Below, piece by piece: positions 1,474-63,316 of a stretch of 64,000 nucleotides of DNA (the stretch's first letter is position 1; every line of letters starts with the position of its first letter). Location: positions 60,541 through 124,540 of the IMG/VR virus record IMGVR_UViG_3300043438_002264, one strand, 5' to 3'. Under the pieces are notes generated by a model. It saw only the letters and a list, made by a program, of their open reading frames with translations, was not told where the DNA came from and searched no databases. The DNA comes from a virus. The position numbers and the translations under genes are program-made.

Positions 1474-1477
1474 TATA

Positions 1478-51565: not shown

Positions 51566-51588
51566 AGCCTATCACGAGCTACCGACAA
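51566..51588 (-). promoter_or_regulatory. Box promoter 1 (minus strand): TTGTCGGTAGC + 17-base phase + TAGGCT
   Basis: On the minus strand TTGTCGGTAGCTCGTGA is followed directly by the -10 TAGGCT. It has the same phase as the eleven plus-strand copies and drives the four-gene leftward mini-operon. Confidence 0.7.
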
Positions 51589-51665
51589 TTGTGCCACCTT
51601 TACAAGCCTTTTGACTACAAACTTTTACCTTCTTTTTTGTAGGGTATCTACAACAATAATTAGAG

Positions 51666-51797
51666 TTATCCACAGATTTAGAGTAGTTATCCACAGGTTT
51701 GTTATCAAATCGTTATAATTATTTTTATTTTATCGGCGTGTCGGTTTGACAATTCTAAAAAAATCGGCTAGCCAACTGTGGATAACTTTGTGTATAA
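51666..51797. other. DnaA-box cluster A, candidate origin
   Basis: TTATCCACA at 51666-51674 and 51687-51695, TGTGGATAA (its complement) at 51777-51785, and the one-mismatch TGTGTATAA at 51789-51797. The region between is AT-rich. The cluster lies between divergent box promoters, a layout typical of replication origins. Confidence 0.6.
51766..51773. repeat. GGCTAGCC element 1
   Basis: First of eight copies of this 8-base palindrome in the right arm. It is followed by two DnaA boxes and box promoter 2. Confidence 0.7.
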
Positions 51798-51842
51798 CTC
51801 TGTTATGATATCGTTATGAAACACCCCGAATTACCTCCCCAA

Positions 51843-51865
51843 ATGTCGGTGGTTTGTGATAGGGT
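51843..51865 (+). promoter_or_regulatory. Box promoter 2: ATGTCGGTGG + TAGGGT
   Basis: ATGTCGGTGGTTTGTGA (17 bases) directly before TAGGGT, preceded by CTCCCCAA. It drives the 51894-52516 cassette. Confidence 0.7.
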
Positions 51866-51893
51866 TTTAGTAAGGCAAAAGAAAGGAAACTAA

Positions 51894-52034
51894 ATGGACA
51901 AAATGTGTGTTTACTGCGAGAGTGTTTTTACTTCAGACACTATCGTCTGCCACAACTGTAATGAGTATGATGGTATGATGCCATTGGAACAGGCTATCGA
52001 CTACCTCAACCTTGACCCCAACGACTTTATTTAG
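51894..52034 (+). CDS. Small zinc-finger-like protein
   Basis: A 46-residue protein with GAAAGGAAACTAA before the ATG. MCVYCESVFTSDTIVCHNCN gives two CxxC pairs, a classic small zinc ribbon, followed by an acidic helix (EQAIDYLNLDPNDFI). It is the first gene of a five-gene cassette. Confidence 0.65.
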   Translation: MDKMCVYCESVFTSDTIVCHNCNEYDGMMPLEQAIDYLNLDPNDFI

Positions 52035-52041
52035 GAGAAAA

Positions 52042-52137
52042 ATGATAACACTAACATTCGAAACTTGGGAAGAGTTTGACAACGCTATCGCTGGGATAGT
52101 ATCATTGGAAACAGAGCTAACTAAGGAGAGCAAGTAA
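52042..52137 (+). CDS. 31-residue protein, paralogue of the 51094-51192 gene
   Basis: ITLTFETWEEFDNAIAGIVS followed by LETELTKESK. It shares the TLTF(E/D)TWEE core with the minus-strand copy. The ribosome site AGGAG is near-ideal, and the stop overlaps the next ATG (TAATG). Confidence 0.6.
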   Translation: MITLTFETWEEFDNAIAGIVSLETELTKESK

Positions 52138-52295
52138 TGACTGAAGAAATGTTTGATGAAATGCTTGATGAGATTTACCCTGTTGTGATAATGGGTGAAC
52201 TAACTTTTTACCCTTCACAAATACTAAAGAATTGCGACCCTATCGCATACAGAATTGCGATGTCAGAAATGGAAGAAGATGAAGATGACAATTGA
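52137..52295 (+). CDS. Small acidic protein, unknown
   Basis: Fifty-two residues with 17 Asp/Glu: TEEMFDEMLDEIYPVVIMGE, then SEMEEDEDDN. The high acidity recalls DNA-mimic or protein-inhibitor peptides, but that is only a guess. It is overlapped by 11 bases by the next gene. Confidence 0.55.
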   Translation: MTEEMFDEMLDEIYPVVIMGELTFYPSQILKNCDPIAYRIAMSEMEEDEDDN

Positions 52296-52380
52296 AGAAT
52301 TAGAAACTTTGATTTATCAAATTGACCTAATGCTGTCAGAGGATACTGCTACACTATTTACAACACCAGAGGAGAAATAA
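52285..52380 (+). CDS. 31-residue protein, unknown
   Basis: MTIEELETLIYQIDLMLSED plus TATLFTTPEEK: one amphipathic helix and an acidic tail. It is coupled to both neighbours (11-base overlap upstream, 1-base gap downstream). Confidence 0.5.
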   Translation: MTIEELETLIYQIDLMLSEDTATLFTTPEEK

Positions 52381-52381
52381 A

Positions 52382-52516
52382 ATGGAACTGTTTTTGATTT
52401 TAGTAGTTGTTGGCGTTTCAGTTTTTGTTGGAACTTCGCTTGCCGCTATTTTGTTTTTGCTACAAGAAAATAACAGACTTGGCGAAGAGTTAGAAAAGAA
52501 CGAGCCACCGTTTTGA
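52382..52516 (+). CDS. Single-helix membrane protein
   Basis: Forty-four residues: a hydrophobic helix at 2-28 (LFLILVVVGVSVFVGTSLAA), then a charged tail (QENNRLGEELEKNEPPF). The ribosome site GAGGAG lies upstream. It ends the cassette before the CCGCA-GAAA-TGCGG hairpin. Confidence 0.6.
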   Translation: MELFLILVVVGVSVFVGTSLAAILFLLQENNRLGEELEKNEPPF

Positions 52517-52526
52517 TTTGACAAAA

Positions 52527-52540
52527 CCGCAGAAATGCGG
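52527..52540 (+). terminator. Hairpin ending cassette 51894-52516
   Basis: CCGCA-GAAA-TGCGG with a GNRA tetraloop. It lacks a long T-tract (followed by CTAGCCATTTTC) and overlaps GGCTAGCC element 2. Confidence 0.6.
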
Positions 52541-52546
52541 CTAGCC
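52539..52546. repeat. GGCTAGCC element 2
   Basis: It overlaps the 3' arm of the preceding hairpin and is followed by TTTTTTACGAAG and box promoter 3. Confidence 0.7.
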
Positions 52547-52600
52547 ATTTTCTTAGATCGATCTAATGTTTTTTACGAAGAAGTTTAAGAACCCCCCAAA

Positions 52601-52623
52601 ATGTCTTAGGGTCGTGGTAAGTT
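52601..52623 (+). promoter_or_regulatory. Box promoter 3: ATGTCTTAGGG + TAAGTT
   Basis: ATGTCTTAGGGTCGTGG (17 bases) followed by TAAGTT, preceded by CCCCCCAAA. It drives the 52649 gene. Confidence 0.65.
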
Positions 52624-52648
52624 TATCTTATCAACGAAAGGAAACCCT

Positions 52649-53167
52649 ATGGACTACGCTGCAATTTATTCAGGAATCGTAAAGAACGCTACCTTTGGTC
52701 AGGTAGAGCAAGCAAGTAAGTGGTATGTTGACGCAGAGCGTATTGCAGAAAAGGTTGCAGAGAATCTAAACACTACCCTTGAGGTTGGTGCAAGTGTTGT
52801 ATCTGCATTCTCTCCACGTGAACGATGGAGTATAAACGTTGCAAGAGCTATTGCATTCTCACTTGGCCAAGAAGTCACCTGCCTAAAGAATAACATAGTC
52901 ATGGCTAACAATGCCTTGACACTTGGCTTTAGTGCTCTAAACGGATTGAAGACTAATGCATTTGCTAAAGCTATTGCAGGTGACGAGCAAGCCGTTGTGA
53001 TTGATGTTTGGATGTTGAGAGCTGTTGGAATTGAAAAGAAGACACCAGGACAGGGGTTGTATCATGAGTTATCGGAAGCTGTAAAGAAAACTGCTTTTGA
53101 TTTTGGGATGACTCCAAGAGCTATGCAGGCTTTGATTTGGATTGTTGTTAGAGGTGCAGCAGAGTAA
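52649..53167 (+). CDS. Conserved helical actinophage protein (possible HhH-type DNA-acting fold)
   Basis: A 172-residue protein with GAAAGGAAACCCT before the ATG. The segments ASVVSAFSPRERWSINVARA, ALNGLKTNAFAKAIAGDE and VVIDVWMLRAVGIEKKTP resemble a conserved family in actinophages. The helical pattern with DVWMLRAVG recalls helix-hairpin-helix glycosylases, but no catalytic Asp/Lys pair can be assigned. It stands alone between box promoter 3 and a terminator. Confidence 0.7.
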   Translation: MDYAAIYSGIVKNATFGQVEQASKWYVDAERIAEKVAENLNTTLEVGASVVSAFSPRERWSINVARAIAFSLGQEVTCLKNNIVMANNALTLGFSALNGLKTNAFAKAIAGDEQAVVIDVWMLRAVGIEKKTPGQGLYHELSEAVKKTAFDFGMTPRAMQALIWIVVRGAAE

Positions 53168-53175
53168 GCTTGACA

Positions 53176-53196
53176 GCTACCCCGAAAGGGGCTAGC
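53176..53196 (+). terminator. Hairpin with GAAA loop overlapping GGCTAGCC element 3
   Basis: GCTACCCC-GAAA-GGGGCTAGC: 8-base stem with one bulged C. The palindrome forms the 3' arm. An identical copy lies at 54276-54296. Confidence 0.65.
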
Positions 53197-53197
53197 C
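53190..53197. repeat. GGCTAGCC element 3
   Basis: Third copy, within the hairpin after the 52649 gene. Confidence 0.7.
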
Positions 53198-53249
53198 GTT
53201 ATCAGATCGTTATAAAACGATTTATGAAGATGTGTGTTTTTCCCCCAAA

Positions 53250-53272
53250 ATGTCTGAGGGTAATGCTAAGAT
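53250..53272 (+). promoter_or_regulatory. Box promoter 4: ATGTCTGAGGG + TAAGAT, leaderless
   Basis: ATGTCTGAGGGTAATGC followed by TAAGAT, then AAAACT and the ATG at 53279. Preceded by TTTTTCCCCCAAA. Confidence 0.7.
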
Positions 53273-53278
53273 AAAACT

Positions 53279-53431
53279 ATGATGAACAAGAACAATGAGG
53301 CAAGACGAAGGGCAGAGTCTAAAGAGTTATTTAGGCTAATGCTAAAGTCGCCACACCTTGTTGAGCTACCTAAGAAATACAAAGGAAGCCGTCAGTCTAA
53401 TAAGGCTAAGGCAATAAAGGAGAGCGAATGA
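53279..53431 (+). CDS. Small basic protein, unknown
   Basis: Fifty residues, strongly basic: NKNNEARRRAESKELFRLML, then PKKYKGSRQSNKAKAIKESE. Its ATG is 6 bases after the -10, so it is leaderless. Probably nucleic-acid-binding by charge. It overlaps the next gene by 4 bases. Confidence 0.6.
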   Translation: MMNKNNEARRRAESKELFRLMLKSPHLVELPKKYKGSRQSNKAKAIKESE

Positions 53432-53577
53432 TTCTACAAGGCTTGATTCACTATGTTTGCGAAGATTGTAATAGGTTTGTTCACTCTAATACAGTCTATG
53501 GCTATGACCTCAAGAATGTCTGTGGCAGATGTTATGCTATTCACGCAGGACACCCCTCAACAAGAAAGGTAAAGTAA
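53428..53577 (+). CDS. Small zinc-ribbon protein
   Basis: Forty-nine residues with VCEDCNRFVHS and VCGRCYAIHAGHP: two CxxC pairs 27 residues apart. It overlaps both neighbours (4 bases upstream, TAATG downstream). Confidence 0.65.
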   Translation: MILQGLIHYVCEDCNRFVHSNTVYGYDLKNVCGRCYAIHAGHPSTRKVK

Positions 53578-53771
53578 TGTCAAAGTATGCCGTATCAGTT
53601 CAGCTATCAGGTAATGATGGAAATGCTTTTGCCGTAATGGGAGCCGTAAAGTCTGCCCTCAAAAAAGCTGGAGCAAGCAAGGAAGAAATTGAGCAATACC
53701 TAACAGACTCTATGTCTGGCGACTATGACAACTTATTGCGTGTAGCAATGGAATGGGTAAAGGTAAAGTAA
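53577..53771 (+). CDS. Small conserved phage protein, unknown
   Basis: Sixty-four residues: SKYAVSVQLSGNDGNAFAVM, then GAVKSALKKAGASKEEIEQY and SGDYDNLLRVAMEWV. The beta-alpha-alpha pattern is one I recall as widespread in actinophages with no known role. The ATG at 53577 is coupled to the upstream stop, which is why an earlier in-frame ATG is rejected. Confidence 0.7.
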   Translation: MSKYAVSVQLSGNDGNAFAVMGAVKSALKKAGASKEEIEQYLTDSMSGDYDNLLRVAMEWVKVK

Positions 53772-53896
53772 TGTTAGGACAACTAAGCATAAGCTTTTGC
53801 GATACCTGTAATGAGTTTGGTATGGTGTCGGTAGTAGATGGTAAACTAATGGTACAGTATTGTGATTGTGAAGTAGAAACCGTAGAAGGAGAATAG
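53771..53896 (+). CDS. Small zinc-ribbon protein
   Basis: Forty-one residues: FCDTCNEFGMVSVVDGKLMV then QYCDCE. The CxxC plus CxC pair is compatible with one zinc. The start overlaps the preceding stop (TAATG). Confidence 0.6.
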   Translation: MLGQLSISFCDTCNEFGMVSVVDGKLMVQYCDCEVETVEGE

Positions 53897-53898
53897 TA

Positions 53899-54213
53899 AT
53901 GGGATACGCAACAGCAGTTGGACTTACAGATACAGACCTAACCCTATCGGACCAAATTAGTATTCACTTTAGTAGCAATTGTTATCCGCCAATTCCGAAG
54001 ATAATGATTCCTGTAGCAGTAGCAGCTATTGACGCTTATTGGGAAGAGGACTACAACCGTCTAATTGAATTACCGTTTGATGGAGTAGACCGTAATGGAG
54101 AGCCTTTTCAGATTCGTTGGCGTGATGGTTCAACAAGTGTTTCTGCCTCAAAAGCAATTCAGTCTCTCAGACTTGACGCTTGGTGTGTAGATGACTATGA
54201 AGATGAGGACTGA
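53899..54213 (+). CDS. Conserved small phage protein, unknown
   Basis: A 104-residue protein: GYATAVGLTDTDLTLSDQIS, IPVAVAAIDAYWEEDYNRLI and EPFQIRWRDGSTSV. It has an acidic C-terminus (VDDYEDED) and a GGAG ribosome site. It looks like a compact alpha/beta protein; the family function is unknown. Confidence 0.65.
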   Translation: MGYATAVGLTDTDLTLSDQISIHFSSNCYPPIPKIMIPVAVAAIDAYWEEDYNRLIELPFDGVDRNGEPFQIRWRDGSTSVSASKAIQSLRLDAWCVDDYEDED

Positions 54214-54275
54214 TGCAGGGTATTCATATTCTAATGATAGCTTTTGTTCTCGCAATGTTGCTGATTAGAGAATAA
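54213..54275 (+). CDS. Possible 20-residue membrane microprotein
   Basis: MQGIHILMIAFVLAMLLIRE. Its ATG overlaps the preceding stop (TGATG), and it ends exactly at the terminator hairpin. A single membrane helix. Confidence 0.4.
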   Translation: MQGIHILMIAFVLAMLLIRE

Positions 54276-54296
54276 GCTACCCCGAAAGGGGCTAGC
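54276..54296 (+). terminator. Hairpin identical to the one at 53176
   Basis: GCTACCCC-GAAA-GGGGCTAGC, overlapping GGCTAGCC element 4. The exact reuse of this 21-base unit suggests a selected boundary element. Confidence 0.65.
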
Positions 54297-54297
54297 C
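54290..54297. repeat. GGCTAGCC element 4
   Basis: Fourth copy, in the hairpin after the 53279-54275 cassette. Confidence 0.7.
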
Positions 54298-54367
54298 TAT
54301 TTGGATCCAAAAGTCAAGCAAAAACAAATGTTACGATTGTGTAACGAATCCCCCCAAATACTATACA

Positions 54368-54390
54368 ATGTCGGTGGGTAATGCTACAAT
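54368..54390 (+). promoter_or_regulatory. Box promoter 5: ATGTCGGTGGG + TACAAT
   Basis: ATGTCGGTGGGTAATGC followed by TACAAT. It precedes the 54455 gene with a leader of about 60 bases. Confidence 0.7.
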
Positions 54391-54454
54391 AAAGCTATCA
54401 ACAAATGTTGGTAATAAATAGAAAAAGACCATCTTGGTCGGAAAGAAGCAAAAA

Positions 54455-54607
54455 ATGGAAAACACTCTAACTGTTGGCTCACAGTTCACCACCGCTAAGT
54501 CTGGAGTATCAGGCACAATTCAGGAAGTCGTAGCAAACAAGAACGGCACTTTCCGTGTTCGTCTTGATGTTGCTGGACAGCCTCGCTGGACTACTGTAAA
54601 GAAGTAG
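54455..54607 (+). CDS. 50-residue SH3-like small protein
   Basis: ENTLTVGSQFTTAKSGVSGT, IQEVVANKNGTFRVRLDV and GQPRWTTVKK: five or six short strands in the pattern of a small beta barrel, possibly nucleic-acid-binding. I recall similar proteins of about 50 residues in actinophage early regions, without assigned function. A GAAAGAAG ribosome site precedes the ATG. The GC-richer codons suggest high expression. Confidence 0.65.
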   Translation: MENTLTVGSQFTTAKSGVSGTIQEVVANKNGTFRVRLDVAGQPRWTTVKK

Positions 54608-54685
54608 TCTAATCTTTGTTGGTGGCGTTAGACTACATAAAAGGGTGAATCAGAGTCTATTTGAGAACCCCTGCCACTTTCACAA

Positions 54686-54708
54686 ATGTCGTAGGTATCC
54701 CCTATAAT
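54686..54708 (+). promoter_or_regulatory. Box promoter 6: ATGTCGTAGG + TATAAT
   Basis: ATGTCGTAGGTATCCCC followed by TATAAT. It precedes the 54745 gene. Confidence 0.7.
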
Positions 54709-54744
54709 GTAAACAACCCAATCAAGAAAAGGAAGTAATAAACT

Positions 54745-55188
54745 ATGGCAAGAACCCTGTCAGTAAAAATCCCAACCGCAAAACTAATCGCAGATGTAGA
54801 GCAGTCTATCGCAAAGATAGATGTTGCTATTGCTGAGTATGCTGAGAAGCGTAAGCAGTATGAAACAGAAATCAAGCAGTATGACAAAGACATTGTTGCT
54901 CACGCTATAAAGGCTATGTCAGACCCAGACAACATTGGAACAGAACACGGCTCATTAGTTCGTGTATCAAGAGGATACAACGGAAACATTTCTGTTGATT
55001 TTGATGTTGAGGCACTTGGCTTACCACCAAAGCCAGTAGAGCCACCAAGACCAAATGAGAAAACTTATTTTGGTCGTGAGTATGCTACACGCAAGGAAGT
55101 CTTAGAGCGTAATCTTCGTATTCTAAAGATGACAAGTCAAGAAGAGGTTTCAGCAAGTTCTTACTCTGCTGTTATTGACCTTATCTAA
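54745..55188 (+). CDS. Coiled-coil conserved phage protein, unknown
   Basis: A 147-residue protein. Residues 10-55 form a long helix (LIADVEQSIAKIDVAIAEYA, then KRKQYETEIKQYDKDIVAHA). The middle has GSLVRVSRGYNGNISVDFDV. A proline-rich linker (LGLPPKPVEPPRPNE) leads to a C-terminal helix. Probably an oligomeric accessory protein. AAAGGAAGTAAT precedes the ATG. Single-gene cassette. Confidence 0.65.
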   Translation: MARTLSVKIPTAKLIADVEQSIAKIDVAIAEYAEKRKQYETEIKQYDKDIVAHAIKAMSDPDNIGTEHGSLVRVSRGYNGNISVDFDVEALGLPPKPVEPPRPNEKTYFGREYATRKEVLERNLRILKMTSQEEVSASSYSAVIDLI

Positions 55189-55232
55189 ACTTAGGGAACA
55201 AGCCTTGCTTGACAAGGAAAACGCCCGAAGCA

Positions 55233-55260
55233 ACCTGAGTATGTTGTAAAACTGCTTCCC
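55233..55260 (+). repeat. 3' UTR element ACCTGAG...GTAAAACTGCTTCCC, copy 1
   Basis: A related sequence lies at 58001-58027 after the DUF932 gene (ACCTGAG, then GTGTAAAAACTGCTCCCTC). In both cases it stands between a stop codon and a GGCTAGCC element. No gene is seen in 55189-55377. Confidence 0.55.
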
Positions 55261-55316
55261 CTCCCCCTCTAAAGCTGAAGGACTTATGTCCACAAATACT
55301 GCGGGGGACTCAAGGG

Positions 55317-55324
55317 GGCTAGCC
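55317..55324. repeat. GGCTAGCC element 5
   Basis: Embedded in GGGGGCTAGCCC. It is followed by CTTTACGAACCC and box promoter 7. Confidence 0.7.
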
Positions 55325-55377
55325 CAAAATAACAAATTGATAACAACTTTAAGAAAAGCCTTTACGAACCCTTGAAA

Positions 55378-55400
55378 ATGTCGGTGGTATACCCTACAAT
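55378..55400 (+). promoter_or_regulatory. Box promoter 7: ATGTCGGTGG + TACAAT
   Basis: TTGAAA lies flush before ATGTCGGTGGTATACCC and TACAAT, so this copy also has a near -35 hexamer. Confidence 0.75.
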
Positions 55401-55425
55401 GGAAGCAAGCAACGAAAGGAAAACA

Positions 55426-55626
55426 ATGTCGTATGACGAAATTAGAAATGTAGGATACGTGTCCTATGATGGAAACTATGGAGCAGAGGCAGACTTGCTT
55501 GTGTTTGATAGCGATGTCCTGACCTTGCAGCAATGGGAAACTCTTGGTGAGGTAAGCGACAACGATAGGTATGAGTATGTTCAGGCTATCTTTGCTGGCA
55601 AAGACTTATCACTATGGGAGGGCTAA
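55426..55626 (+). CDS. Small acidic protein, unknown
   Basis: Sixty-six residues from the ATG at 55426 (GAAAGGAAAACA before it): SYDEIRNVGYVSYDGNYGAE, LTLQQWETLGEVSDNDRYEY. The sequence is acidic. The stop overlaps the next ATG (TAATG). Not recognised. Confidence 0.6.
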   Translation: MSYDEIRNVGYVSYDGNYGAEADLLVFDSDVLTLQQWETLGEVSDNDRYEYVQAIFAGKDLSLWEG

Positions 55627-55946
55627 TGTTAGACCTGATAGAGATGGATTACAGGATTGATGAGTATACCAATGAGGCTAAAGGTATTGCTTTCGATACC
55701 TGCCACAAAATCTACGTCCTAATGGATGAGGAGCAGGTTGCTCTTATGCGTGAGTATGGCTATGAAAAACTAATCACAAGTGATGAGATGAATGGTGATG
55801 AGCTAAGACGGCAAGTCATGGACTGGTATCACGAGTCTTGTGGACTTAGGTTTGTCAATGCCGTGTCAAGTGATAAAAGTTTTGGGGATGATGGTTGGGT
55901 CACCATTATTGGTCAGGGCGAGGATTCTGAAGACGAAGATGAATAA
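55626..55946 (+). CDS. Small acidic protein, unknown
   Basis: A 106-residue protein: LDLIEMDYRIDEYTNEAKGI, VYE-like helices (QVALMREYGYEKLITSDEMN), WYHESCGLRFVNAV, and an acidic end. It is coupled to the preceding gene. Its stop codon overlaps box promoter 8. Confidence 0.6.
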   Translation: MLDLIEMDYRIDEYTNEAKGIAFDTCHKIYVLMDEEQVALMREYGYEKLITSDEMNGDELRRQVMDWYHESCGLRFVNAVSSDKSFGDDGWVTIIGQGEDSEDEDE

Positions 55947-55968
55947 TGTCGGTGGGTGCTGATAAAGT
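55946..55968 (+). promoter_or_regulatory. Box promoter 8: ATGTCGGTGGG + TAAAGT
   Basis: ATGTCGGTGGGTGCTGA followed by TAAAGT. The box overlaps the stop of the upstream gene and drives the 55988 gene. Confidence 0.65.
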
Positions 55969-55987
55969 GGAAGAAAGAAAGGAAACT

Positions 55988-56158
55988 ATGAAAACTTGGC
56001 AAGTAGAATACAATGCCGCTTATTGGGTAGAAGCAGAGACAGAAGATGAGGCTATTGAATTAGCTATGGAGAAACACGCTGACCTACCAGACGGAGATTG
56101 GGAAGCTATGATTGACCCCTATGATAGCAACAACTTCAATACCCTTGGAGAAAAGTAA
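55988..56158 (+). CDS. Small protein with W-x-V-E-A-E-T repeat fold, paralogue of the 58525 gene
   Basis: Fifty-six residues from the ATG at 55988, with GAAAGGAAACT before it: KTWQVEYNAAYWVEAETEDE, AIELAMEKHADLPDG. The pattern (strand, VEA(E/D)T.(D/E)EA, helix, DLxD) recurs at 58525-58704. Earlier in-frame codons would include the promoter box and are rejected. Confidence 0.65.
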   Translation: MKTWQVEYNAAYWVEAETEDEAIELAMEKHADLPDGDWEAMIDPYDSNNFNTLGEK

Positions 56159-56180
56159 TGTCAGCGGGTAGCGTTATAAT
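56158..56180 (+). promoter_or_regulatory. Box promoter 9: ATGTCAGCGGG + TATAAT
   Basis: ATGTCAGCGGGTAGCGT followed by TATAAT. It overlaps the end of the 55988 gene and gives the 56259 gene its own start. Confidence 0.65.
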
Positions 56181-56277
56181 TATTGAGTGCCCAAGGCACG
56201 AAGGCAATTTCGATTGCACACCATTCTGCAACATATGTGAAGGAGAACAGGAGATAAAATGGGCACCAGGAATCTAA
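56158..56277 (+). CDS. Possible zinc-knuckle small protein overlapping a promoter
   Basis: A 39-residue frame whose ATG overlaps the upstream stop: SAGSVIIIECPRHEGNFDC, then TPFCNICEGEQEIKW. The CPxH...C...CxxC layout is protein-like and suits zinc binding. Its start coincides with box promoter 9, and it overlaps the next gene by 19 bases, so it is uncertain. Confidence 0.4.
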   Translation: MSAGSVIIIECPRHEGNFDCTPFCNICEGEQEIKWAPGI

Positions 56278-56762
56278 CAGTAGTAAAGAATTCGCAGGGT
56301 ACTACCAAAATTGCTCAATACGGACAATGGGACGGATACCCAAGCTATTCAGGTATTCAGGTCTTAGAGTTTTTGCGTGATGAGTATAACCAACAGCTGT
56401 TGGAAGCTAAGCTTGATGTTGTAGAGTTTATTACAGACGAAGAGCTTGACACTATCTATGAGCCTTTCAAGACTATGGATTTTGAGAATAAGGAATTCCT
56501 AAACGCCTACCCTGGCCTACACAGAGATACAGGTGTTGACATTTTGAAAGTTGTTGCCAACGCCAAGGGTATTATCAAGACTGTAGACAATTCAGACTTT
56601 AGGAATGATGAACTATTTTGCGAGGGCGTCTATGAAGTAGACTTCCAATCTAAAAAGTTTATCTCTACTTATAACGAAATCATCAAAGAGTTCTTTTTAG
56701 AAAACCTTCCGACTAATGAACACTACCTAACTGCAATGGGTGTGGAGCTGGAAACAGTATAA
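56259..56762 (+). CDS. Conserved phage protein of the MGTRNLTVVK type
   Basis: A 167-residue protein. The N-terminus GTRNLTVVKNSQGTTKIAQY, GQWDGYPSYSGIQVLEFL is a conserved hallmark of a protein family spread widely in large phages, function unknown. The C-terminal half is acidic and helical. The ribosome site CAGGAG lies before the ATG. The strict conservation of the GQWDGYP region suggests a binding or catalytic site. Confidence 0.75.
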   Translation: MGTRNLTVVKNSQGTTKIAQYGQWDGYPSYSGIQVLEFLRDEYNQQLLEAKLDVVEFITDEELDTIYEPFKTMDFENKEFLNAYPGLHRDTGVDILKVVANAKGIIKTVDNSDFRNDELFCEGVYEVDFQSKKFISTYNEIIKEFFLENLPTNEHYLTAMGVELETV

Positions 56763-56768
56763 GCATGT

Positions 56769-56801
56769 TGGCCTAACCTTACTTCCTTTCTGTTAGGTCA
56801 A
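56769..56801 (+). terminator. Hairpin after the 56259 gene
   Basis: TTGGCCTAAC / GTTAGGTCAA stem (one G-T pair) with a 13-base loop and no T-tract. GGCTAGCC element 6 follows 40 bases later. Confidence 0.5.
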
Positions 56802-56839
56802 CCGTCCTGGACACGACGTACAAACTGTCCACTCTTTTG

Positions 56840-56847
56840 GGCTAGCC
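56840..56847. repeat. GGCTAGCC element 6
   Basis: Within the 10-base palindrome GGGCTAGCCC. It is followed by two TTTACGAT motifs and box promoter 10. Confidence 0.7.
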
Positions 56848-56917
56848 CACTTGTGTCTAAATGTCAAGCCCTTTACGATCTGTTTACGATAACCTCGAAT
56901 CTTTTCCCAAATTAGTC

Positions 56918-56946
56918 TTGACTTTGTCGGTGGGTGGGTGTAAGAT
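56918..56946 (+). promoter_or_regulatory. Box promoter 10: TTGACT + TTGTCGGTGGG + TAAGAT
   Basis: A full promoter: -35 TTGACT flush with the box, exact 17-base spacer (TTGTCGGTGGGTGGGTG) and -10 TAAGAT. It drives the DUF932 gene. Confidence 0.8.
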
Positions 56947-56980
56947 AGTCTTATCTAAACACTAAAGAAAGGCAATACAA

Positions 56981-57991
56981 ATGGCACATTTGTTAGAATC
57001 AGTAAACGGAGAAACAGCATTTGCTTCTTTTCGTGAGCCAGCTTGGCACGGATTGGGAACTGTATTCACTGAGGAAGTTTCAACAGCTGAAATGCTAAAG
57101 AAAGCTAAACTAAACAACTGGGATGTTCGCTTGGAAGATGTAGAGATTCCTAACCAGTTTAGTTCCGACAAGAATTATTCTTTTGTCGTTAGAGATAACC
57201 CATTTACCTTGGGCAATAAGGATGTTCTTGGCATTGTCGGTGAGCGTTATGTTCCTCTTCAGAATGAGGAGCTATTTGATTTTGCTGACACACTATTAGA
57301 CAATGGTGGCAGATGGGAAACTGCTGGTTCCATCAAGGGCGGTAGAGTTGTATTTGGCTCACTTGCTCTTGAGCGTGAAACTGTTATTGACCCTAACGGA
57401 GTTGGAGATAAAGTAAACACCTATCTTCTTGTAAACACATCTCACGACGGCTCTATTGCTATTCAGGCAAGCATTACACCTGTCCGAGTTGTATGTGCTA
57501 ACACTCTAAACCTTGCTCTTGGTAATCGTGGGCGTAATGGTTCAGTAAAGCAGTCATTCAAGATTCGCCACACACAGACAGCAGAAGGTAAGATTCAGGT
57601 TGCTCGTGAGGCTCTTGGACTTGCTAACGCATACATTGATGAGTTTAGCCTAATGGCAAACAAGATGATTCAAGCTGAGGTTAGCAAAAAGAAGTTTGAT
57701 GAAATTGTTTTGGCATTGTATCCACAGCCAAAAGAAGAAGCAAAGAACGCCAACAGTCGTTGGGCAAAAAAGATTGACCTTATCAATGACATCTATGTTG
57801 GTGATTTCAACAACACAATTACTGGAACAGCTTGGGGTGTTGCTAATGCCCTAACTGAAAGATTAGACTGGTATAGAACAGGTCGCAAAGGCAAAACAGA
57901 ATCACTTCTTGTTGGTGCCTCTGGTCTTGACCCAGTCATCAATGCTGAGAAGAATAGAATCTTCAAGGCAGTTCAGTTGGCAACAGCCTAA
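56981..57991 (+). CDS. DUF932 (phage/plasmid-like TIGR03299-type) protein
   Basis: A 336-residue protein, the largest in the right arm. The N-terminus HLLESVNGETAFASFREPAW, HGLGTVFTEEVSTAEML and later YVPLQNEELFDFADTLLDNG and RVVCANTLNLAL are typical of DUF932 proteins found in actinophages and plasmids. The role is unknown; a DNA-metabolism link is often assumed. GC-rich codons and a strong promoter suggest heavy early expression. AAAGAAAGG precedes the ATG. Confidence 0.85.
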   Translation: MAHLLESVNGETAFASFREPAWHGLGTVFTEEVSTAEMLKKAKLNNWDVRLEDVEIPNQFSSDKNYSFVVRDNPFTLGNKDVLGIVGERYVPLQNEELFDFADTLLDNGGRWETAGSIKGGRVVFGSLALERETVIDPNGVGDKVNTYLLVNTSHDGSIAIQASITPVRVVCANTLNLALGNRGRNGSVKQSFKIRHTQTAEGKIQVAREALGLANAYIDEFSLMANKMIQAEVSKKKFDEIVLALYPQPKEEAKNANSRWAKKIDLINDIYVGDFNNTITGTAWGVANALTERLDWYRTGRKGKTESLLVGASGLDPVINAEKNRIFKAVQLATA

Positions 57992-58000
57992 CAGCAAAAC

Positions 58001-58027
58001 ACCTGAGCAAGTGTAAAAACTGCTCCC
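58001..58027 (+). repeat. 3' UTR element, copy 2
   Basis: ACCTGAGCAAGTGTAAAAACTGCTCCC, related to 55233-55260. It is followed by TTTTGGGGCTAGCC. No gene is seen from 57992 to 58145. Confidence 0.55.
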
Positions 58028-58035
58028 TCTTTTGG

Positions 58036-58043
58036 GGCTAGCC
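58036..58043. repeat. GGCTAGCC element 7
   Basis: Seventh copy. CTTTACGAACAATC and CCCCCGAAA follow before box promoter 11. Confidence 0.7.
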
Positions 58044-58110
58044 AACTTTACATAAAATAATTAACACCAAAAAATTCTTTACGAACAATCAAAAAAATCC
58101 CCCGAAATCG

Positions 58111-58139
58111 TTGACTTTGTCGGTGGGTATCAGTATAAT
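58111..58139 (+). promoter_or_regulatory. Box promoter 11: TTGACT + TTGTCGGTGGG + TATAAT, leaderless
   Basis: -35 TTGACT, 17-base spacer TTGTCGGTGGGTATCAG, -10 TATAAT, then ATACCT and the ATG at 58146. The best member of the family. Confidence 0.85.
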
Positions 58140-58145
58140 ATACCT

Positions 58146-58532
58146 ATGAACGTAAAAACCCTAAACCACATTGAAACTGCAAAAGTCCTTGGTCTCAAGA
58201 AGGGCGTTATTGTTTATCCTCATGCTGTTGTCAATACCCGCAAAGGTTTGGCAACTGTATCCTTTGAAGGTGTTGGATGGTTTGAAGACGAGTGCATGTA
58301 TCCAGTCCTTGTTGGAGACGAATACAACAGCTGGATGGCAAAGCTTACTAAGGAGCAACTGCTAAGCTTAGTAAGAGAAGAACCAGGAATGACCCTGCAT
58401 AAACTAATAGACCCAATCAACGATAGAACACGATCTAATCTGTGGATTTGGGAAAATCAAATCAAAGACTTTGACCAAAATGTCGTAGGGTCAGAGTATA
58501 ATGAACTGAAAAGAGAGGAAGCCCATGCCTGA
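58146..58532 (+). CDS. Small conserved-looking protein, unknown
   Basis: A 128-residue protein: NVKTLNHIETAKVLGLKKGV, VSFEGVGWFEDECMYPVLVG, AKLTKEQLLSLVREEPG. Leaderless ATG. Its C-terminal 20 codons contain box promoter 12, and it overlaps the next gene by 8 bases. No family recognised. Confidence 0.65.
   Translation: MNVKTLNHIETAKVLGLKKGVIVYPHAVVNTRKGLATVSFEGVGWFEDECMYPVLVGDEYNSWMAKLTKEQLLSLVREEPGMTLHKLIDPINDRTRSNLWIWENQIKDFDQNVVGSEYNELKREEAHA
58480..58502 (+). promoter_or_regulatory. Box promoter 12: ATGTCGTAGGG + TATAAT, inside a gene
   Basis: ATGTCGTAGGGTCAGAG followed by TATAAT, within the end of the 58146 gene. It gives the 58525 gene group a separate promoter. Confidence 0.65.
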
Positions 58533-58704
58533 ATTTAGAGTACAAAGAGAATACACCAACTGGGAAGAGATTACAGTTGAAGCAGATACACAAGAAGAGG
58601 CCTTAGACCTTGCTCAAGATGATGAGGACCTTTGGGAGTATGCAATTGATGCTACCACATACAACTACACAGGCGAGTATTGGGTAGGAGAAGACGATGA
58701 GTAA
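58525..58704 (+). CDS. Small acidic protein, paralogue of the 55988 gene
   Basis: Fifty-nine residues: PEFRVQREYTNWEEITVEAD, TQEEALDLAQDDEDLWEY. Same strand-VEADT-EEAL helix plan as the 55988 product. It has an AGAGAGGAAG ribosome site. It overlaps the next gene by 8 bases. Confidence 0.65.
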   Translation: MPEFRVQREYTNWEEITVEADTQEEALDLAQDDEDLWEYAIDATTYNYTGEYWVGEDDE

Positions 58705-58801
58705 GCACATTCATTACTATGCATACGGAGCCTGCACTCATTGTGGCAAGGTAGTAAACAAAGGATTAGGTGTTGACTTATACAAAGGCAAGAGAGTATA
58801 A
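58697..58801 (+). CDS. 34-residue protein with one CxxC
   Basis: SKHIHYYAYGACTHCGKVVN, KGLGVDLYKGKRV. One CxxC plus His residues near the N-terminus could bind one metal. Overlaps the upstream gene by 8 bases. Confidence 0.5.
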   Translation: MSKHIHYYAYGACTHCGKVVNKGLGVDLYKGKRV

Positions 58802-58820
58802 TGGAGAAAGGAGAAAATAA

Positions 58821-58964
58821 ATGACAATGGATGAACTAATGGAATACATTCTAAGAGAACTCCCTAATGCTGTATTTGGCGAGGAACACACTAACGGAGA
58901 AATCCTAATCGCAACTGGATTAGTAGAAGGCAAAAACGGAACCCTATCAGATTTGGATGACTAA
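58821..58964 (+). CDS. Small acidic protein, unknown
   Basis: Forty-seven residues: TMDELMEYILRELPNAVFGE, NGEILIATGLVEGKNGT. GGAGAAAGGAG upstream. The helix-beta-hairpin look and stop-start overlap (TAATG) with the next gene support it. Confidence 0.6.
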   Translation: MTMDELMEYILRELPNAVFGEEHTNGEILIATGLVEGKNGTLSDLDD

Positions 58965-59359
58965 TGGAGCCAACAGAATACAAAGGCTGGGATGAGTGGG
59001 CTAAAAAGTTCAAGCCTATTCAGAATCACTTTTACCCAGACCAACCAGAAACCACAATGTTTGAAACTTATGGTGAAGAAGTAGAGTTTGTCAATAACTA
59101 TGACCATAGGTATGTTTGGACTAATCTTACTGGAGACATGTCAGACCTTATTTGTGCTGGCTATCACTATGTAAATAGGATTGGTTATTACATTACTGAG
59201 GTACCGTGGGATAATGAGGATGACTATGCTTTACTATCAGTTGAGGTAGAGTGTGAATGCTACAACGAAGATGGCTATGAAAATGGCGAGTATGGAAAAG
59301 CAGACTGTAAAGAATGCGAAGGTTATGGAATGATAACGAGGTATCTCGATGAGGACTAA
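58964..59359 (+). CDS. Small protein with C-terminal CxC-CxxC zinc motif
   Basis: A 131-residue protein. The N-terminal part EPTEYKGWDEWAKKFKPIQN looks globular; the end VEVECECYNEDGYENGEYGK, ADCKECEGYG resembles one half of a DnaJ-type zinc repeat (CxC ... CxxCxGxG). The next gene overlaps its last 11 bases. Function unknown. Confidence 0.6.
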   Translation: MEPTEYKGWDEWAKKFKPIQNHFYPDQPETTMFETYGEEVEFVNNYDHRYVWTNLTGDMSDLICAGYHYVNRIGYYITEVPWDNEDDYALLSVEVECECYNEDGYENGEYGKADCKECEGYGMITRYLDED

Positions 59360-59684
59360 TAGTATTGATAAGACTAAGTTTATCTATGACCTAAACATCT
59401 ATCAGCTGGAGGAGCTGGACGCTGATGGTGAGTACAGGTATATGGGGCCATGGTATATCCATGTCTATGAATACACTGGTAACACGACGGAAGAGGTATC
59501 AGTTCCGATCGAGCTGACTCAAGATGAGTATAATAATATACTTAGAGATGACCCATACTATGATGAAAACGATGTCTGGTATGGCCTGGACGGATTCATG
59601 TTTGAAAAATGGAACAACCTGTCAGATAGACTCAAGTTTATCTTTGAGTCCCTACCTAAATACAAGGAAGAAGTTTTATTTTGA
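59349..59684 (+). CDS. Small acidic protein, unknown
   Basis: A 111-residue protein rich in Tyr and Asp: YDLNIYQLEELDADGEYRYM, WYIHVYEYTGNTTEEVSVPI, FMFEKWNNLSDRLKFIFESL. No motif. Last gene before a new promoter at 59688. Confidence 0.6.
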   Translation: MRTNSIDKTKFIYDLNIYQLEELDADGEYRYMGPWYIHVYEYTGNTTEEVSVPIELTQDEYNNILRDDPYYDENDVWYGLDGFMFEKWNNLSDRLKFIFESLPKYKEEVLF

Positions 59685-59687
59685 TAC

Positions 59688-59716
59688 TTGACAAACTAAT
59701 AGGATTCCTGTACAAT
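59688..59716 (+). promoter_or_regulatory. Consensus sigma-70-type promoter TTGACA-17-TACAAT
   Basis: TTGACA at 59688-59693, 17-base spacer, TACAAT at 59711-59716. No TGTCGGTGGG box here, so this promoter is probably not part of the box regulon. Confidence 0.8.
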
Positions 59717-59764
59717 GGAATAGCAATACAAAACAATAACCAACAACCCAATAGGAGTAATAAA

Positions 59765-59923
59765 ATGGCAAAGAAGAACAAGGCAAAAACCTATCCTTAT
59801 CTTGAGACTTGGGACACACGCTATGGTATGAGTCAGCGTGTGGTTCTACGCAAGGATGGTAAGTTCGTAGATAACATCTCACTTACCGCACTGAAGCAAG
59901 GGGTTAGGGTTTCCTCTCGCTAA
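59765..59923 (+). CDS. Small basic protein, unknown
   Basis: Fifty-two residues from the ATG at 59765 (AATAGGAGTAATAAA before it): AKKNKAKTYPYLETWDTRYG, MSQRVVLRKDGKFVDNISLT. A Lys-rich N-terminus and beta-strand pattern suggest nucleic-acid binding. Single-gene unit with a consensus promoter and terminator, so probably strongly expressed. Confidence 0.65.
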   Translation: MAKKNKAKTYPYLETWDTRYGMSQRVVLRKDGKFVDNISLTALKQGVRVSSR

Positions 59924-59936
59924 TCAGTAAATGAGA

Positions 59937-59972
59937 AAAGGGGGGCACAGGTTCAGGCTTGTGTCCCCTTTC
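59937..59972 (+). terminator. Terminator after the 59765 gene
   Basis: AAAGGGG ... CACAG / CTTGTGTCCCCTTT hairpin. The stem carries A and T at its base, so it can act on both strands. Confidence 0.75.
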
Positions 59973-59981
59973 CCGTTCTGG

Positions 59982-59987
59982 TATAAT
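59982..59987 (+). promoter_or_regulatory. -10 box before the 59998 gene
   Basis: TGGTATAAT, 10 bases before the ATG with GAGAGG between. Confidence 0.55.
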
Positions 59988-59997
59988 GAGAGGACCT

Positions 59998-60210
59998 ATG
60001 AGAAGAAGAATAAAAACAGAAGAAGAAAAAGCAGCATTGAAGTTAGCAACAATTGTTTCTGATGTGAGATTAGACTTAGATGAAGTTGGTATCTATCTTG
60101 GAAGATACGCACCAGCAGTTTCATACAACAGACTAATACTTGTAGCAGAATCAGCAGAGTTTGAGAAAGAGAGTATAGATGTCCGAAACACCCACGAACC
60201 ACTTTTTTAG
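59998..60210 (+). CDS. Small basic/helical protein, unknown
   Basis: Seventy residues from the ATG at 59998, chosen over an upstream in-frame ATG that lies inside the terminator: RRRIKTEEEKAALKLATIVS, DVRLDLDEVGIYLGRYAP. Helical; overlaps the next gene by 32 bases. Confidence 0.6.
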   Translation: MRRRIKTEEEKAALKLATIVSDVRLDLDEVGIYLGRYAPAVSYNRLILVAESAEFEKESIDVRNTHEPLF

Positions 60211-60460
60211 AAAGTGTGAGATTCTTGGAGAGCTTTGGCTCAACTATCGTAATGACGAACAGTTCCAAGACTTTATAGAATACAACGACTTGGGCTTGCC
60301 ACTTGCTTATGCGTTTGCTAATGAAATTGCCAAAGAGACAGAGCTGGCAGAAAGATATGTAAATGAAAGCTATGACCTACTCGCAGAATCTTTGGGGGTA
60401 TCAGGAACAGAACCATTTGATAGTCTTGAAGATATGTTAGAACAGTCAGTAGGAGAATAA
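60179..60460 (+). CDS. Small acidic protein, tandem paralogue 1
   Basis: Ninety-three residues: CEILGELWLNYRNDEQFQDF, IEYNDLGLPLAYAFANEI, AERYVNESYDLLAESLGV. The same plan occurs in the next gene (AQMWEEDRE...FEYGDIGFPLA...AEKYIEDLW...FGV), so the two arose by tandem duplication. All-helical. Function unknown. Confidence 0.65.
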   Translation: MSETPTNHFFRKCEILGELWLNYRNDEQFQDFIEYNDLGLPLAYAFANEIAKETELAERYVNESYDLLAESLGVSGTEPFDSLEDMLEQSVGE

Positions 60461-60786
60461 TGCCAGAGACACTACATTCAGATAAGAGAGCTATCCTTGC
60501 TCAAATGTGGGAAGAGGACAGAGAGAATCTGGCTCTTCAGAAATTGTTTGAGTATGGAGATATTGGATTTCCACTCGCAAGCTCTATAGAGAATGATATT
60601 GTTGCCAGCACCTTAGTAGCAGAAAAATACATTGAGGATTTGTGGAATGTAATGCTTCAGTATTTTGGTGTTGAGGATACAGGAGAGTATGACCACTGGA
60701 CGGACATCGCAGATGCGGCTGGTTGGGAGTGGGTAGAAAACTCAGAAGTTCCAGCGTATCTTGAAAAGTTAGAAAAAGAAAACTAA
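60460..60786 (+). CDS. Small acidic protein, tandem paralogue 2
   Basis: A 108-residue protein, related to the preceding gene over 70 residues with an added C-terminus (HWTDIADAAGWEWVENSEVP). The ATG overlaps the upstream stop (TAATG). It ends the last large plus-strand cassette. Confidence 0.65.
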   Translation: MPETLHSDKRAILAQMWEEDRENLALQKLFEYGDIGFPLASSIENDIVASTLVAEKYIEDLWNVMLQYFGVEDTGEYDHWTDIADAAGWEWVENSEVPAYLEKLEKEN

Positions 60787-60788
60787 TA

Positions 60789-60820
60789 GACTTGCCCTCA
60801 CTTAAGGTGGGGGTAAAGTC
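60789..60820 (+). terminator. Hairpin after the 60460 gene
   Basis: GACTT-CCC-CAC / GGTG-GGG-AAGTC stem with TTAA loop and small bulges, immediately followed by GGCTAGCC element 8. Confidence 0.6.
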
Positions 60821-60828
60821 GGCTAGCC
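60821..60828. repeat. GGCTAGCC element 8
   Basis: Last copy noticed. It lies next to the iteron region. Confidence 0.7.
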
Positions 60829-60862
60829 CTATCAAATTGAGATATCCAAATAGCCAAATACC

Positions 60863-60987
60863 ATTACGAACGCTATCATATTTTTCCCAAATTGTCAAAT
60901 ACTATTTTCCCAAATAGGATTACGATCCTAATATGTTTTTCCCCAAAATGGGATTACGATCCATAGGATCTTTTTCCCAAATAGGGG
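60863..60987. repeat. Iteron array 1: three ATTACGA(A/T)C + TTTTTCCCCAAAT units
   Basis: Units begin at 60863 (ATTACGAACG), 60917 (GGATTACGATCC) and 60951 (GGATTACGATCC). Each is followed by TTTTTCCC(C)AAA within about 20 bases. Non-coding, AT-rich, directly upstream of the leaderless 61000 gene. Confidence 0.7.
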
Positions 60988-60993
60988 TATAAT
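60988..60993 (+). promoter_or_regulatory. Leaderless promoter of the 61000 gene
   Basis: TATAAT, TGGTAT, then ATG at 61000. The box sits at the end of the last iteron. Confidence 0.6.
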
Positions 60994-60999
60994 TGGTAT

Positions 61000-61218
61000 A
61001 TGAGCCCAAGAAGATATTTCACACACTTCACAAATATGTATGTTCCCATAGATGATAATGTTAACTATGGTACTAACCTATGGTTTACCTTTACTGCTAT
61101 TACAGGTATATCTAAGCTCTTCACATATACCCCCGATTTTTTGCAGGGGCAGGAGCAGCAGCCGCAGGCTGCAGATTCCCAGGGTATTGAAGACACCTTG
61201 GATAACAAATCCCTCTAG
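61000..61218 (+). CDS. Small protein beside the iterons, unknown
   Basis: Seventy-two residues: SPRRYFTHFTNMYVPIDDNV, TNLWFTFTAITGISKLFTYT, and a Gln-rich end (GQEQQPQAADSQG). Leaderless ATG at 6 bases from TATAAT. The position between iteron groups would suit an initiator or regulator, but no DNA-binding motif is seen. Confidence 0.5.
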   Translation: MSPRRYFTHFTNMYVPIDDNVNYGTNLWFTFTAITGISKLFTYTPDFLQGQEQQPQAADSQGIEDTLDNKSL

Positions 61219-61608
61219 TATAATATACATTACGAACCCTTTGGATTTTTCCCCAAATATGGGATATGTTTCTTAAAATAACATTACGATTATCAAATAT
61301 TTTATCCCAAATTGGGGATATTATTGTATGTTTTATATGCGGATATTTGGCATACAAGGATACAGTATTTGGTATTTGATATACAGTATTTGGTACTTGA
61401 CAAATGAGGGAAAGTGTGATAGGCAATTTGGGCCTTACGAACCCTCAATCAGAAATGCCCCATTACCCATATCTCTCCACAACCATCCACAAATAGCCAA
61501 ATAGATTTATCCACAGTAAGATGTATATGTGGATAACTTGTGAATAACTTATCAAATATGTGTATAAGTTTTTAAAATTTGGGGGTATTTAGATCTTCGG
61601 ATGGGCGG
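61219..61608. other. Non-coding candidate origin with iterons and DnaA-box cluster B
   Basis: Two more iteron units (CATTACGAACCC at 61229; CATTACGAT at 61282) each with TTTTNCCC(C)AAAT. Direct repeat ATACAGTATTTGGTA near 61360-61398. Then DnaA boxes TTATCCACA 61507-61515, TGTGGATAA 61528-61536, and near-matches TGTGAATAA 61539-61547 and TGTGTATAA 61559-61567. No convincing gene. Confidence 0.6.
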
Positions 61609-61692
61609 CTATCGTTTATTCAAATATGCCAATATGAGAGCACAAACGCCAAATAGGATTGTCAGGCATATGATGATTTGGTCATTTGTCAT
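61609..61692 (-). CDS. 27-residue membrane microprotein, leaderless
   Basis: MTNDQIIICLTILFGVCALI followed by LAYLNKR: one membrane helix with a basic end. TATACT (61699-61704) lies exactly 6 bases before the ATG, as in other leaderless genes here. That makes this tiny frame credible. Confidence 0.5.
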   Translation of the reverse strand: MTNDQIIICLTILFGVCALILAYLNKR

Positions 61693-61718
61693 GTATCCAG
61701 TATAGCAAGATTTCTGGA

Positions 61719-61790
61719 TTATTTCTTCAATGTTATTAATGAGCATATGAGGGTTATTGCTATCATCCAAACCATCACGTTATCCAACAT
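61719..61790 (-). CDS. 23-residue membrane microprotein
   Basis: MLDNVMVWMIAITLICSLIT plus LKK. AAGGA lies 8 bases upstream. It is in tandem with the 27-residue membrane gene, the same plan (short polar start, helix, basic end). Confidence 0.4.
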   Translation of the reverse strand: MLDNVMVWMIAITLICSLITLKK

Positions 61791-61847
61791 AGGTTATTCC
61801 TTATACTAGGGATTACGAAGGCTCGTTTTAATACCCCCGAAATTATC

Positions 61848-61923
61848 TGGTGCCCTCAGTTGGACTCGAACCAACACTGAATAGATTTTAAGTCTACTTC
61901 CTCTGCCATTGGGATATGAGGGC
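61848..61923 (-). tRNA. tRNA with anticodon UAA (Leu, UUA codons)
   Basis: Seventy-six bases that fold canonically: acceptor GCCCTCA / TGAGGGC, D stem TCC/GGA with loop G18G19, anticodon stem GTAGA / TCTAT with loop CTTAAAA (anticodon UAA at 34-36), variable loop TCAGT, T stem GTTGG / CCAAC with loop TTCGAGT, discriminator A and encoded CCA. Leu tRNAs normally have a long variable arm; this one has only 5 bases. It should help read the UUA codons that are frequent in this AT-rich genome. Confidence 0.93.
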
Positions 61924-61929
61924 TAATGA

Positions 61930-62130
61930 CTATTTTCTACCCCAACTGACTTTAAGCCAAAACCTTTCATGGATGTAATACAATACAAAGTTAATAAGAT
62001 TTGATATCAAGGATAGGGATGCTGCAAACTCCCAGCTGTTGGTCATTACGAACCCAACTCCAAATGTCACGAATATTGCTATTAGTCTCCAGGTTATGGA
62101 CTTAGCTAGTGAACGTCTTTTACTGACCAT
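61930..62130 (-). CDS. DUF2061-like two-helix membrane protein
   Basis: Sixty-six residues: SKRRSLAKSITWRLIAIFVT, FGVGFVMTNSWEFAASLSLI, NFVLYYIHERFWLKVSWG. The RSLAKS(I/L)TWR...YY.HER.W pattern is that of DUF2061 membrane proteins, known from bacteria and phages, function unknown. Its 3' end lies 7 bases from the tRNA on the same strand. Confidence 0.8.
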   Translation of the reverse strand: MVSKRRSLAKSITWRLIAIFVTFGVGFVMTNSWEFAASLSLISNLINFVLYYIHERFWLKVSWGRK

Positions 62131-62335
62131 CTATTTCCCAGTCTTTGGCATATCCATAACATACCCCACCTGTGGTCATATCCCAAATAGCGATCTCTCC
62201 TAGCTGGAGATATTTGACCTGAGTTGGGGATGTGATATGGAACATCCATTTGCCTTCTGGAATAGCAAATTCAGTATCTGAGTCACTCATTCGATTGATA
62301 TGTGTGTCTCTCTTGGCTGTTGCAAATTGGCTCAT
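62120..62335 (-). CDS. Small protein, leaderless and operator-controlled
   Basis: Seventy-one residues: TEFAIPEGKWMFHITSPTQV, KYLQLGEIAIWDMTTGGVCY, GYAKDWEIDG. Beta-rich. The ATG is 6 bases after TATAAT of a perfect TTGACA-17-TATAAT promoter (62342-62370) whose -35 is overlapped by a palindromic operator. It overlaps the next gene by 11 bases. Confidence 0.7.
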   Translation of the reverse strand: MSQFATAKRDTHINRMSDSDTEFAIPEGKWMFHITSPTQVKYLQLGEIAIWDMTTGGVCYGYAKDWEIDGQ

Positions 62336-62341
62336 ATATAA

Positions 62342-62383: not shown

Positions 62384-62410
62384 CATTAATCTCTATTTAC
62401 CGCCGAACTT

Positions 62411-63292: not shown

Positions 63293-63316
63293 CCATAAAT
63301 TAAGACAAAATACACA

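Follow-up and report, generated by a model that had tools for sequence, protein, structure and literature searches.

The right arm of IMG/VR virus record IMGVR_UViG_3300043438_002264 carries a family of promoter-like sites, each with a TGTC box at one fixed distance from a -10 hexamer. We analysed a window of 64,000 bases, positions 60,541 to 124,540 of that record, and coordinates are those of the window unless the record is named. The sites resemble RecA-NDp promoters, the LexA/RecA-independent DNA damage promoters described in Mycobacterium tuberculosis. On sequence evidence, we consider it probable that they are promoters of this kind, driven by the host activator PafBC in an actinophage group known here from metagenomes.

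The arm and its boxed candidate promoters

The features of the arm are listed here. Each site is a candidate RecA-NDp-like promoter unless another description is given, scores are those of a matrix of bacterial sites introduced below, and ORF stands for open reading frame.

51566..51588, minus: TTGTCGGTAGC-N6-TAGGCT; score 21.8; upstream of a minus-strand ATG at 51540
51843..51865, plus: TGTCGGTGG; score 26.8, the top of the phage sequence scanned; upstream of an ORF at 51894
52601..52623, plus: TGTCTTAGG; score 9.9, within shuffle range; upstream of the DUF7178 gene
52649..53167, plus: DUF7178 protein gene (PF23802, 5.9e-32)
53250..53272, plus: TGTCTGAGG; score 10.8, within shuffle range; predicted transcription start at ATG 53279 (leaderless)
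53516..53538, plus: probable extra site TGTCTGTGG; score 21.2; within a small ORF, upstream of an ORF at 53577
54368..54390, plus: TGTCGGTGGGT; score 21.1
54686..54708, plus: TGTCGTAGG; score 13.1, within shuffle range; upstream of an ORF at 54745
55378..55400, plus: TGTCGGTGG with -35 TTGAAA; score 22.9
55484..64000, no strand: exact direct repeat, 8,517 bases, of record bases 1-8517, which is a long terminal repeat or else an overlap from assembly; doubles five promoters
55946..55968, plus: TGTCGGTGGGT; score 24.2; in the terminal repeat
56158..56180, plus: TGTCAGCGGG; score 14.8; in the terminal repeat
56924..56946, plus: TGTCGGTGGGT with -35 TTGACT; score 21.4; upstream of the DUF932 gene, in the terminal repeat
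56981..57991, plus: DUF932 protein gene (PF06067, 5.5e-49), the query used to find relatives
58117..58139, plus: TGTCGGTGGGT with -35 TTGACT; score 19.9; predicted leaderless start at 58146, in the terminal repeat
58480..58502, plus: TGTCGTAGGG; score 11.5, within shuffle range; upstream of an ORF at 58525, in the terminal repeat

The pattern WTGTCNNNGG-N7-TANNNT has 13 exact matches on the two strands of the window, compared with a mean of 0.29 and a maximum of 2 in 100 dinucleotide shuffles. The promoter family with a fixed-phase box that a first-pass annotation had described is therefore real, and the equal frequency in shuffled sequence that it had named as refuting was not seen. Twelve of the matches are plus-strand sites, spanning 51843 to 58502. 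The thirteenth, at 38789 on the minus strand, looks like a chance occurrence; it overlies a start codon and AGGAGG. The annotation had counted eleven plus sites and one minus site, which is correct if 53516 is omitted and the near match at 51588 is included, but the latter has AG in place of GG. The g that its pattern has after GG is not constant, as 51843, 54686 and 55378 have T there.

The phase of the box is strict. The window contains 30 TGTCnnnGG cores; 14 of them have a TAnnnT at offset 16, and no other offset from 9 to 35 accounts for more than 3. When the whole 124,540-base record was searched with the looser WTGTCNNNG-N8-TANNNT, 17 forward and 2 reverse matches were found; the reversed control gave 3 and 4. 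The 17 comprise the 12 in the arm and five copies in the left terminal repeat. These results support the earlier view of a box at about -29 to -19, held at one phase, that could coordinate the arm. The remarks on the -35 region were also accurate, with TTGACT at 56924 and 58117 and TTGAAA at 55378; 54686 has TTCACA as well (5/6 match, spacing 18). A TGn precedes the -10 box in half of the twelve plus sites. With start codons picked by hand, the distance from site end to start codon is 7-79 bases, and two of the twelve, 53250 and 58117, are predicted to give leaderless messages.

How well do these sites fit the bacterial element? The M. tuberculosis consensus is tTGTCRgtg - 8 nt - TannnT (PMC5656591, excerpt). 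TGTC and TAnnnT are present in all twelve plus sites because the search pattern itself fixed them. At the other positions, R is found in 9 of 12, and RGTG is complete in six (51843, 54368, 55378, 55946, 56924 and 58117) and one base off in two (53516 and 56158). In the remaining four, AGG replaces the consensus GTGG. Scored with a matrix of 50 bacterial sites, 18 of which come from a single genome (G006), nine of the 13 listed phage sites reach 14.8-26.8, whereas the highest score in five first-order shuffles of the window is 13.7. The best scores outside the listed sites are 13.8, at 53825 in the arm, and then 12.6.

The element in bacteria and in related viruses

The closest relatives of the phage NrdE protein, among the best 80 of 568, are from two Rhodoluna metagenome genomes (78%). 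Rhodoluna is a freshwater genus of the Microbacteriaceae. Relatives of the phage ribonucleotide reductase led us to six bacterial genomes (G001-G006) of candidate host lineages, all of which encode an adjacent, same-strand pair of WYL genes. The one pair checked against the PDB, from Rhodoluna, matches PafBC (6sj9) at 1.6e-36 and 2.2e-22. WTGTCRGTGG-N7-TANNNT occurs 18 times in G006, with no match in the reversed controls, and nine of these sites precede recA, uvrB, ruvA, rarA, ftsK, clpX, rmuC and two gyrase-type genes, as judged by hand from translated ORFs. Two Rhodoluna genomes have a single site, TTGACAAAATGTCGGTGGGT, upstream of a LysM gene. At the one such locus examined (L259), lexA (TIGR00498) lies on the other side of the site, and the LysM protein matches YneA below the cut-off (51.2 vs 60 bits).

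Wider surveys recovered the element in two forms. Within the Rhodoluna family, 71 of the 80 genomes have the GG form, and the controls gave 4 matches in total. At the level of the class, 282 of 394 genomes have it, and the CC form, WTGTCRGMCCC-N6-TANNNT, occurs in 195 of the same 394; control matches, counted by hand, number 22 for GG and 6 for CC. When 30 CCC loci were read by hand, one site each was found to precede recA (L375), dnaE1 (L369, 191 bases off), radA (L371) and holA (L352); the other 26 were not assigned to repair. To sample recA itself, 30 genomes were chosen at steps, of which 29 yielded the gene. TGTC-N12-TAnnnT lies upstream in 27 of these (14 GG, 9 CC, 4 other), against an average of 0.09 at 23 other offsets. 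A strict switch between GG and CC according to host class was considered and rejected, as both forms occur in many bacterial genomes and many phage loci; GG and CC counts are, for example, 22 and 4 in G103, 21 and 9 in G282, 35 and 13 in G352, and 2 and 12 in G295.

In the bacterial loci L336, L346-L375 and L376-L404, recA promoters take two forms, TGTCRGTGG and TGTCGGACCC. The consensus quoted in the excerpt of PMC5656591 gives only the former.

The same architecture recurs in viruses. With the DUF932 gene as query, we obtained 45 related viral loci containing 476 TGTCnnnGG cores, of which 255 have TAnnnT at offset 16 and at most 25 at any other offset. At least one WTGTCnnnGG-N7-TAnnnT site is present in 32 of the 45. 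Among the 13 relatives without the GG form, seven (L029, L031, L048-L051 and L053) have a different box, typically AATGTCAGACCCC, with identical spacing. Thus 39 of the 45 have one form or the other, TGTCRGTGG or TGTCAGACCCC, and L052 and L054-L058 have neither. With the right half left free, AATGTC-N12-TAnnnT gives 383 sites in the window and 40 of the 45 relatives (L014-L053), and 17 other spacings together give 405. The right half of these sites is GG in 206 and CC in 105.

A -35 hexamer matching at 5 or 6 of 6 positions is found in 77 of these 311 distinct boxed sites (7.4 expected). Among 37 distinct regions upstream of DUF932 genes, a strict TAnnnT search finds 15 GG, 5 CC and 1 other box, and none in 16, several of which, by eye, keep the box with GATAAT or CATAAT. 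Seventeen of the 21 with a strict box have a -35. Together, the -35 in a quarter of boxed sites and in most DUF932 regions with a strict box suggests two classes of promoter, one basal and induced and the other induced only.

IMG/VR scans extended the survey. At least 119 stretches have TTGTCGGTGG with TATAAT, at least 120 have ATGTCAGACCCC with TATAAT, and 67 have TTGTCGGTGG with TAGNCT; we analysed 80, 77 and 63 loci, respectively. The three sets contain 262, 184 and 103 GG sites and 117, 312 and 11 CC sites, respectively (reversed controls 2, 2 and 0 for GG and 4, 5 and 2 for CC), and because every locus was preselected for at least one match, only the excess above that one counts. Three or more sites occur in 60 of the 80 loci of the first set and 69 of the 77 of the second. 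Within a locus the sites are mostly, though not always, on one strand.

A blastn search with the arm (51550-58700) found 46 records, all of them from Streptomyces phages and 60-80% identical; the best place covers 6% of the query. One 1,185-residue protein of the window found no counterpart when searched by tblastn against 50,697 phage records. In the terminal arms of five Streptomyces Stanwilliamsviridae phages (L012, L013, L343, L344 and L345), there are 957 TGTC; TAGAnT stands at offset 16 from 19 of them and at any other offset from 6 to 44 in at most 3 cases. TGTC at this place is found in only 8 of their 46 distinct GnTAGA[CG]T promoters, and in most cases there is no GG half.

Several further features were noted. 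Box pairs 385-399 or 209-220 bases apart are common in L059, L061, L062, L066, L068, L079, L098, L101, L115, L122 and L137. By eye, the words TTTACGAA or TTAAGAA recur within about 60 bases 5' of the box, often accompanied by a run of C and then AA, at 52570-52600, at 55350-55377 and in the DUF932 upstream regions of L014-L047; they are possibly the site of another regulator. Transcription units of the arm are closed by a shared hairpin, AGCTACCCCGAAAGGGGCTAGCC or similar (53175-53197, 54275-54297 and 58021-58043), with a constant GGGGCTAGCC end and no clear T run. The record (L009-L011) also encodes NrdE, NrdF, DnaE, a RecA-like protein, a primase-like protein, glycosyltransferases, a carbamoyltransferase and tRNAs.

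A proposed host activator and its alternatives

PafBC is activated by single-stranded DNA bound at its WYL domains; PafB engages a -26 motif and PafC meets SigA domain 4 (PMC11804915, excerpt). In Mycobacterium smegmatis without PafBC, P1-driven induction of recA is completely blocked (PMC5656591, excerpt). We propose that the helix-turn-helix of PafB would read the TGTCRGTGG-type box, in which TGTC ends 12 bases 5' of the -10 hexamer, while PafC would hold region 4 of sigma-A and allow RNA polymerase to start without a good -35. Infection would supply the single-stranded DNA, through incoming ends, nuclease trimming or replication, and so turn PafBC on. The phage arm would then be switched on as part of the host damage response, and the -35 in about a quarter of the group's sites, the DUF932 promoter included, may permit basal expression. 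We infer PafBC binding, the single-stranded DNA trigger, the timing and the identity of the host from sequence. An early damage signal during actinophage infection is plausible, since SOS repair genes of Rhodococcus erythropolis are up five minutes after infection by phage WC1, with a RecA homologue among those enriched (PMC10986025, excerpt).

A number of observations weigh against a PafBC-driven arm. Four of the listed sites (52601, 53250, 54686 and 58480), all with A before GG, score within shuffle range, although one bacterial recA site, TGTCAGAGG, offers a counterpoint. A pattern of the kind used on the phage was also what selected the bacterial sites of the matrix, which makes its invariant columns a matter of choice. 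G001, G002 and G003 have one GG-form match each, and G001 one control match too; G004 and G005 have no WTGTCRGTGG-N7-TANNNT match. The two Rhodoluna recA genes have no such box upstream, and an earlier recA set of 16 mostly small genomes gave TGTC-N12-TAnnnT at only 7 of 15 loci (L338, which ends at a contig end, was left out). Among the viruses, the GG form is missing from the five most distant relatives (L054-L058) and the CC form from four of them (L054-L057), and only 9 of the 63 loci of the third scan have three or more sites. A Rhodoluna-like host is weakly indicated by one gene, NrdE, and other Actinomycetia are possible. Finally, very early firing is not obvious because PafBC needs single-stranded DNA.

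Could the box instead serve a different regulator, or none? The first-pass annotation favoured a phage-coded one, and an activator or sigma-like protein of unrecognised fold with PafBC-like box specificity would make host PafBC unnecessary. Such a protein could hide in the arm, where 8 of the 10 proteins scanned have no Pfam match; the Pfam scan covered only 40 phage proteins in all, a reach that also counts against PafBC. Against a phage-coded regulator, which we find improbable, neither a WYL domain nor sigma-70 region 2 was found in the phage record at E <= 0.001, and the box matches the host RecA-NDp element in both forms and in its -10 spacing. Another host regulator of the same element seems to us just as improbable. 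ClgR is also reported to recognise the P1 promoter in M. smegmatis, a point against PafBC, but the excerpt that reports this (PMC5656591) also describes the complete block of P1 induction in the pafBC deletion. A different WYL sigma adaptor might resemble SiwR, which likewise acts at -26, but SiwR recognises a 19-bp imperfect palindrome containing a GGA triplet, unlike the phage box.

We give still less credence to ordinary sigma-A promoters of a repeated cassette, with the box as a copied remnant that no regulator reads. The excess of -35 hexamers among boxed sites is in its favour. However, some bases between box and -10 vary freely, and the 311 of 383 free-right-half sites with GG or CC carry the same pairs as bacterial recA promoters.

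If PafBC drives the arm, this would explain how phages without a recognisable sigma factor of their own could time a gene arm, and the boxed sites would offer a naturally occurring collection of PafBC promoters of both forms. Hosts would be predicted to alter phage sensitivity through pafBC. Our broader proposal, that this actinophage group adopted the host's sensor of single-stranded DNA as its early-gene activator and copied both host forms (TGTCRGTGG and TGTCAGACCCC), is more tentative, and we rate it at somewhat below even. Under this proposal, the virus's own exposed DNA would be the signal that infection has begun, pafBC would count among the host factors of infection, and the proportions of the two box forms would reflect the specificity of the host PafBC. 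In our search of the literature on PafBC with phage, RecA-NDp and related terms, with subscription journals mostly outside its coverage, the titles and abstract openings of the papers listed named no phage arm under an activating WYL sigma adaptor.

Comparison with known systems

The phage sites share with RecA-NDp and recA P1 promoters the TGTC, the R or a near equivalent, the GTG-type half, the 8-base gap, TAnnnT, a mostly absent -35 and a position of about -29 to -19. They differ in belonging to a phage genome, in having twelve plus-strand copies within 6.7 kb ahead of genes mostly of unknown function, and in having AGG in place of GTGG at four of the twelve.

L5-type stoperators are spread across the genome and are not locked to a promoter. 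The letters GGTGG and TGTC are common to stoperators and the phage box, a likeness raised in the first-pass annotation, but in the phage box their order is reversed. The likeness looks superficial because the sites are locked to the -10 box and confined to one arm; genome-wide, promoter-free sites were not found, only the arm and its repeat copy at one phase.

The annotation's other comparison, with T4 middle promoters, fares better. There, MotA and AsiA act at a box in the -30 region that takes over from the -35 element in contacting sigma region 4, and a box so placed would do the same in the phage arm, redirecting the housekeeping holoenzyme to promoters that have no good -35. The difference is that the activator would come from the host and that single-stranded DNA would be the trigger. 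Phages that respond to host LexA are known, and the arm would resemble LexA-controlled phage operons in tying phage genes to the host DNA damage response. It would differ from them in relying on positive control by an activator rather than relief of repression, and in acting through many promoters rather than one switch.

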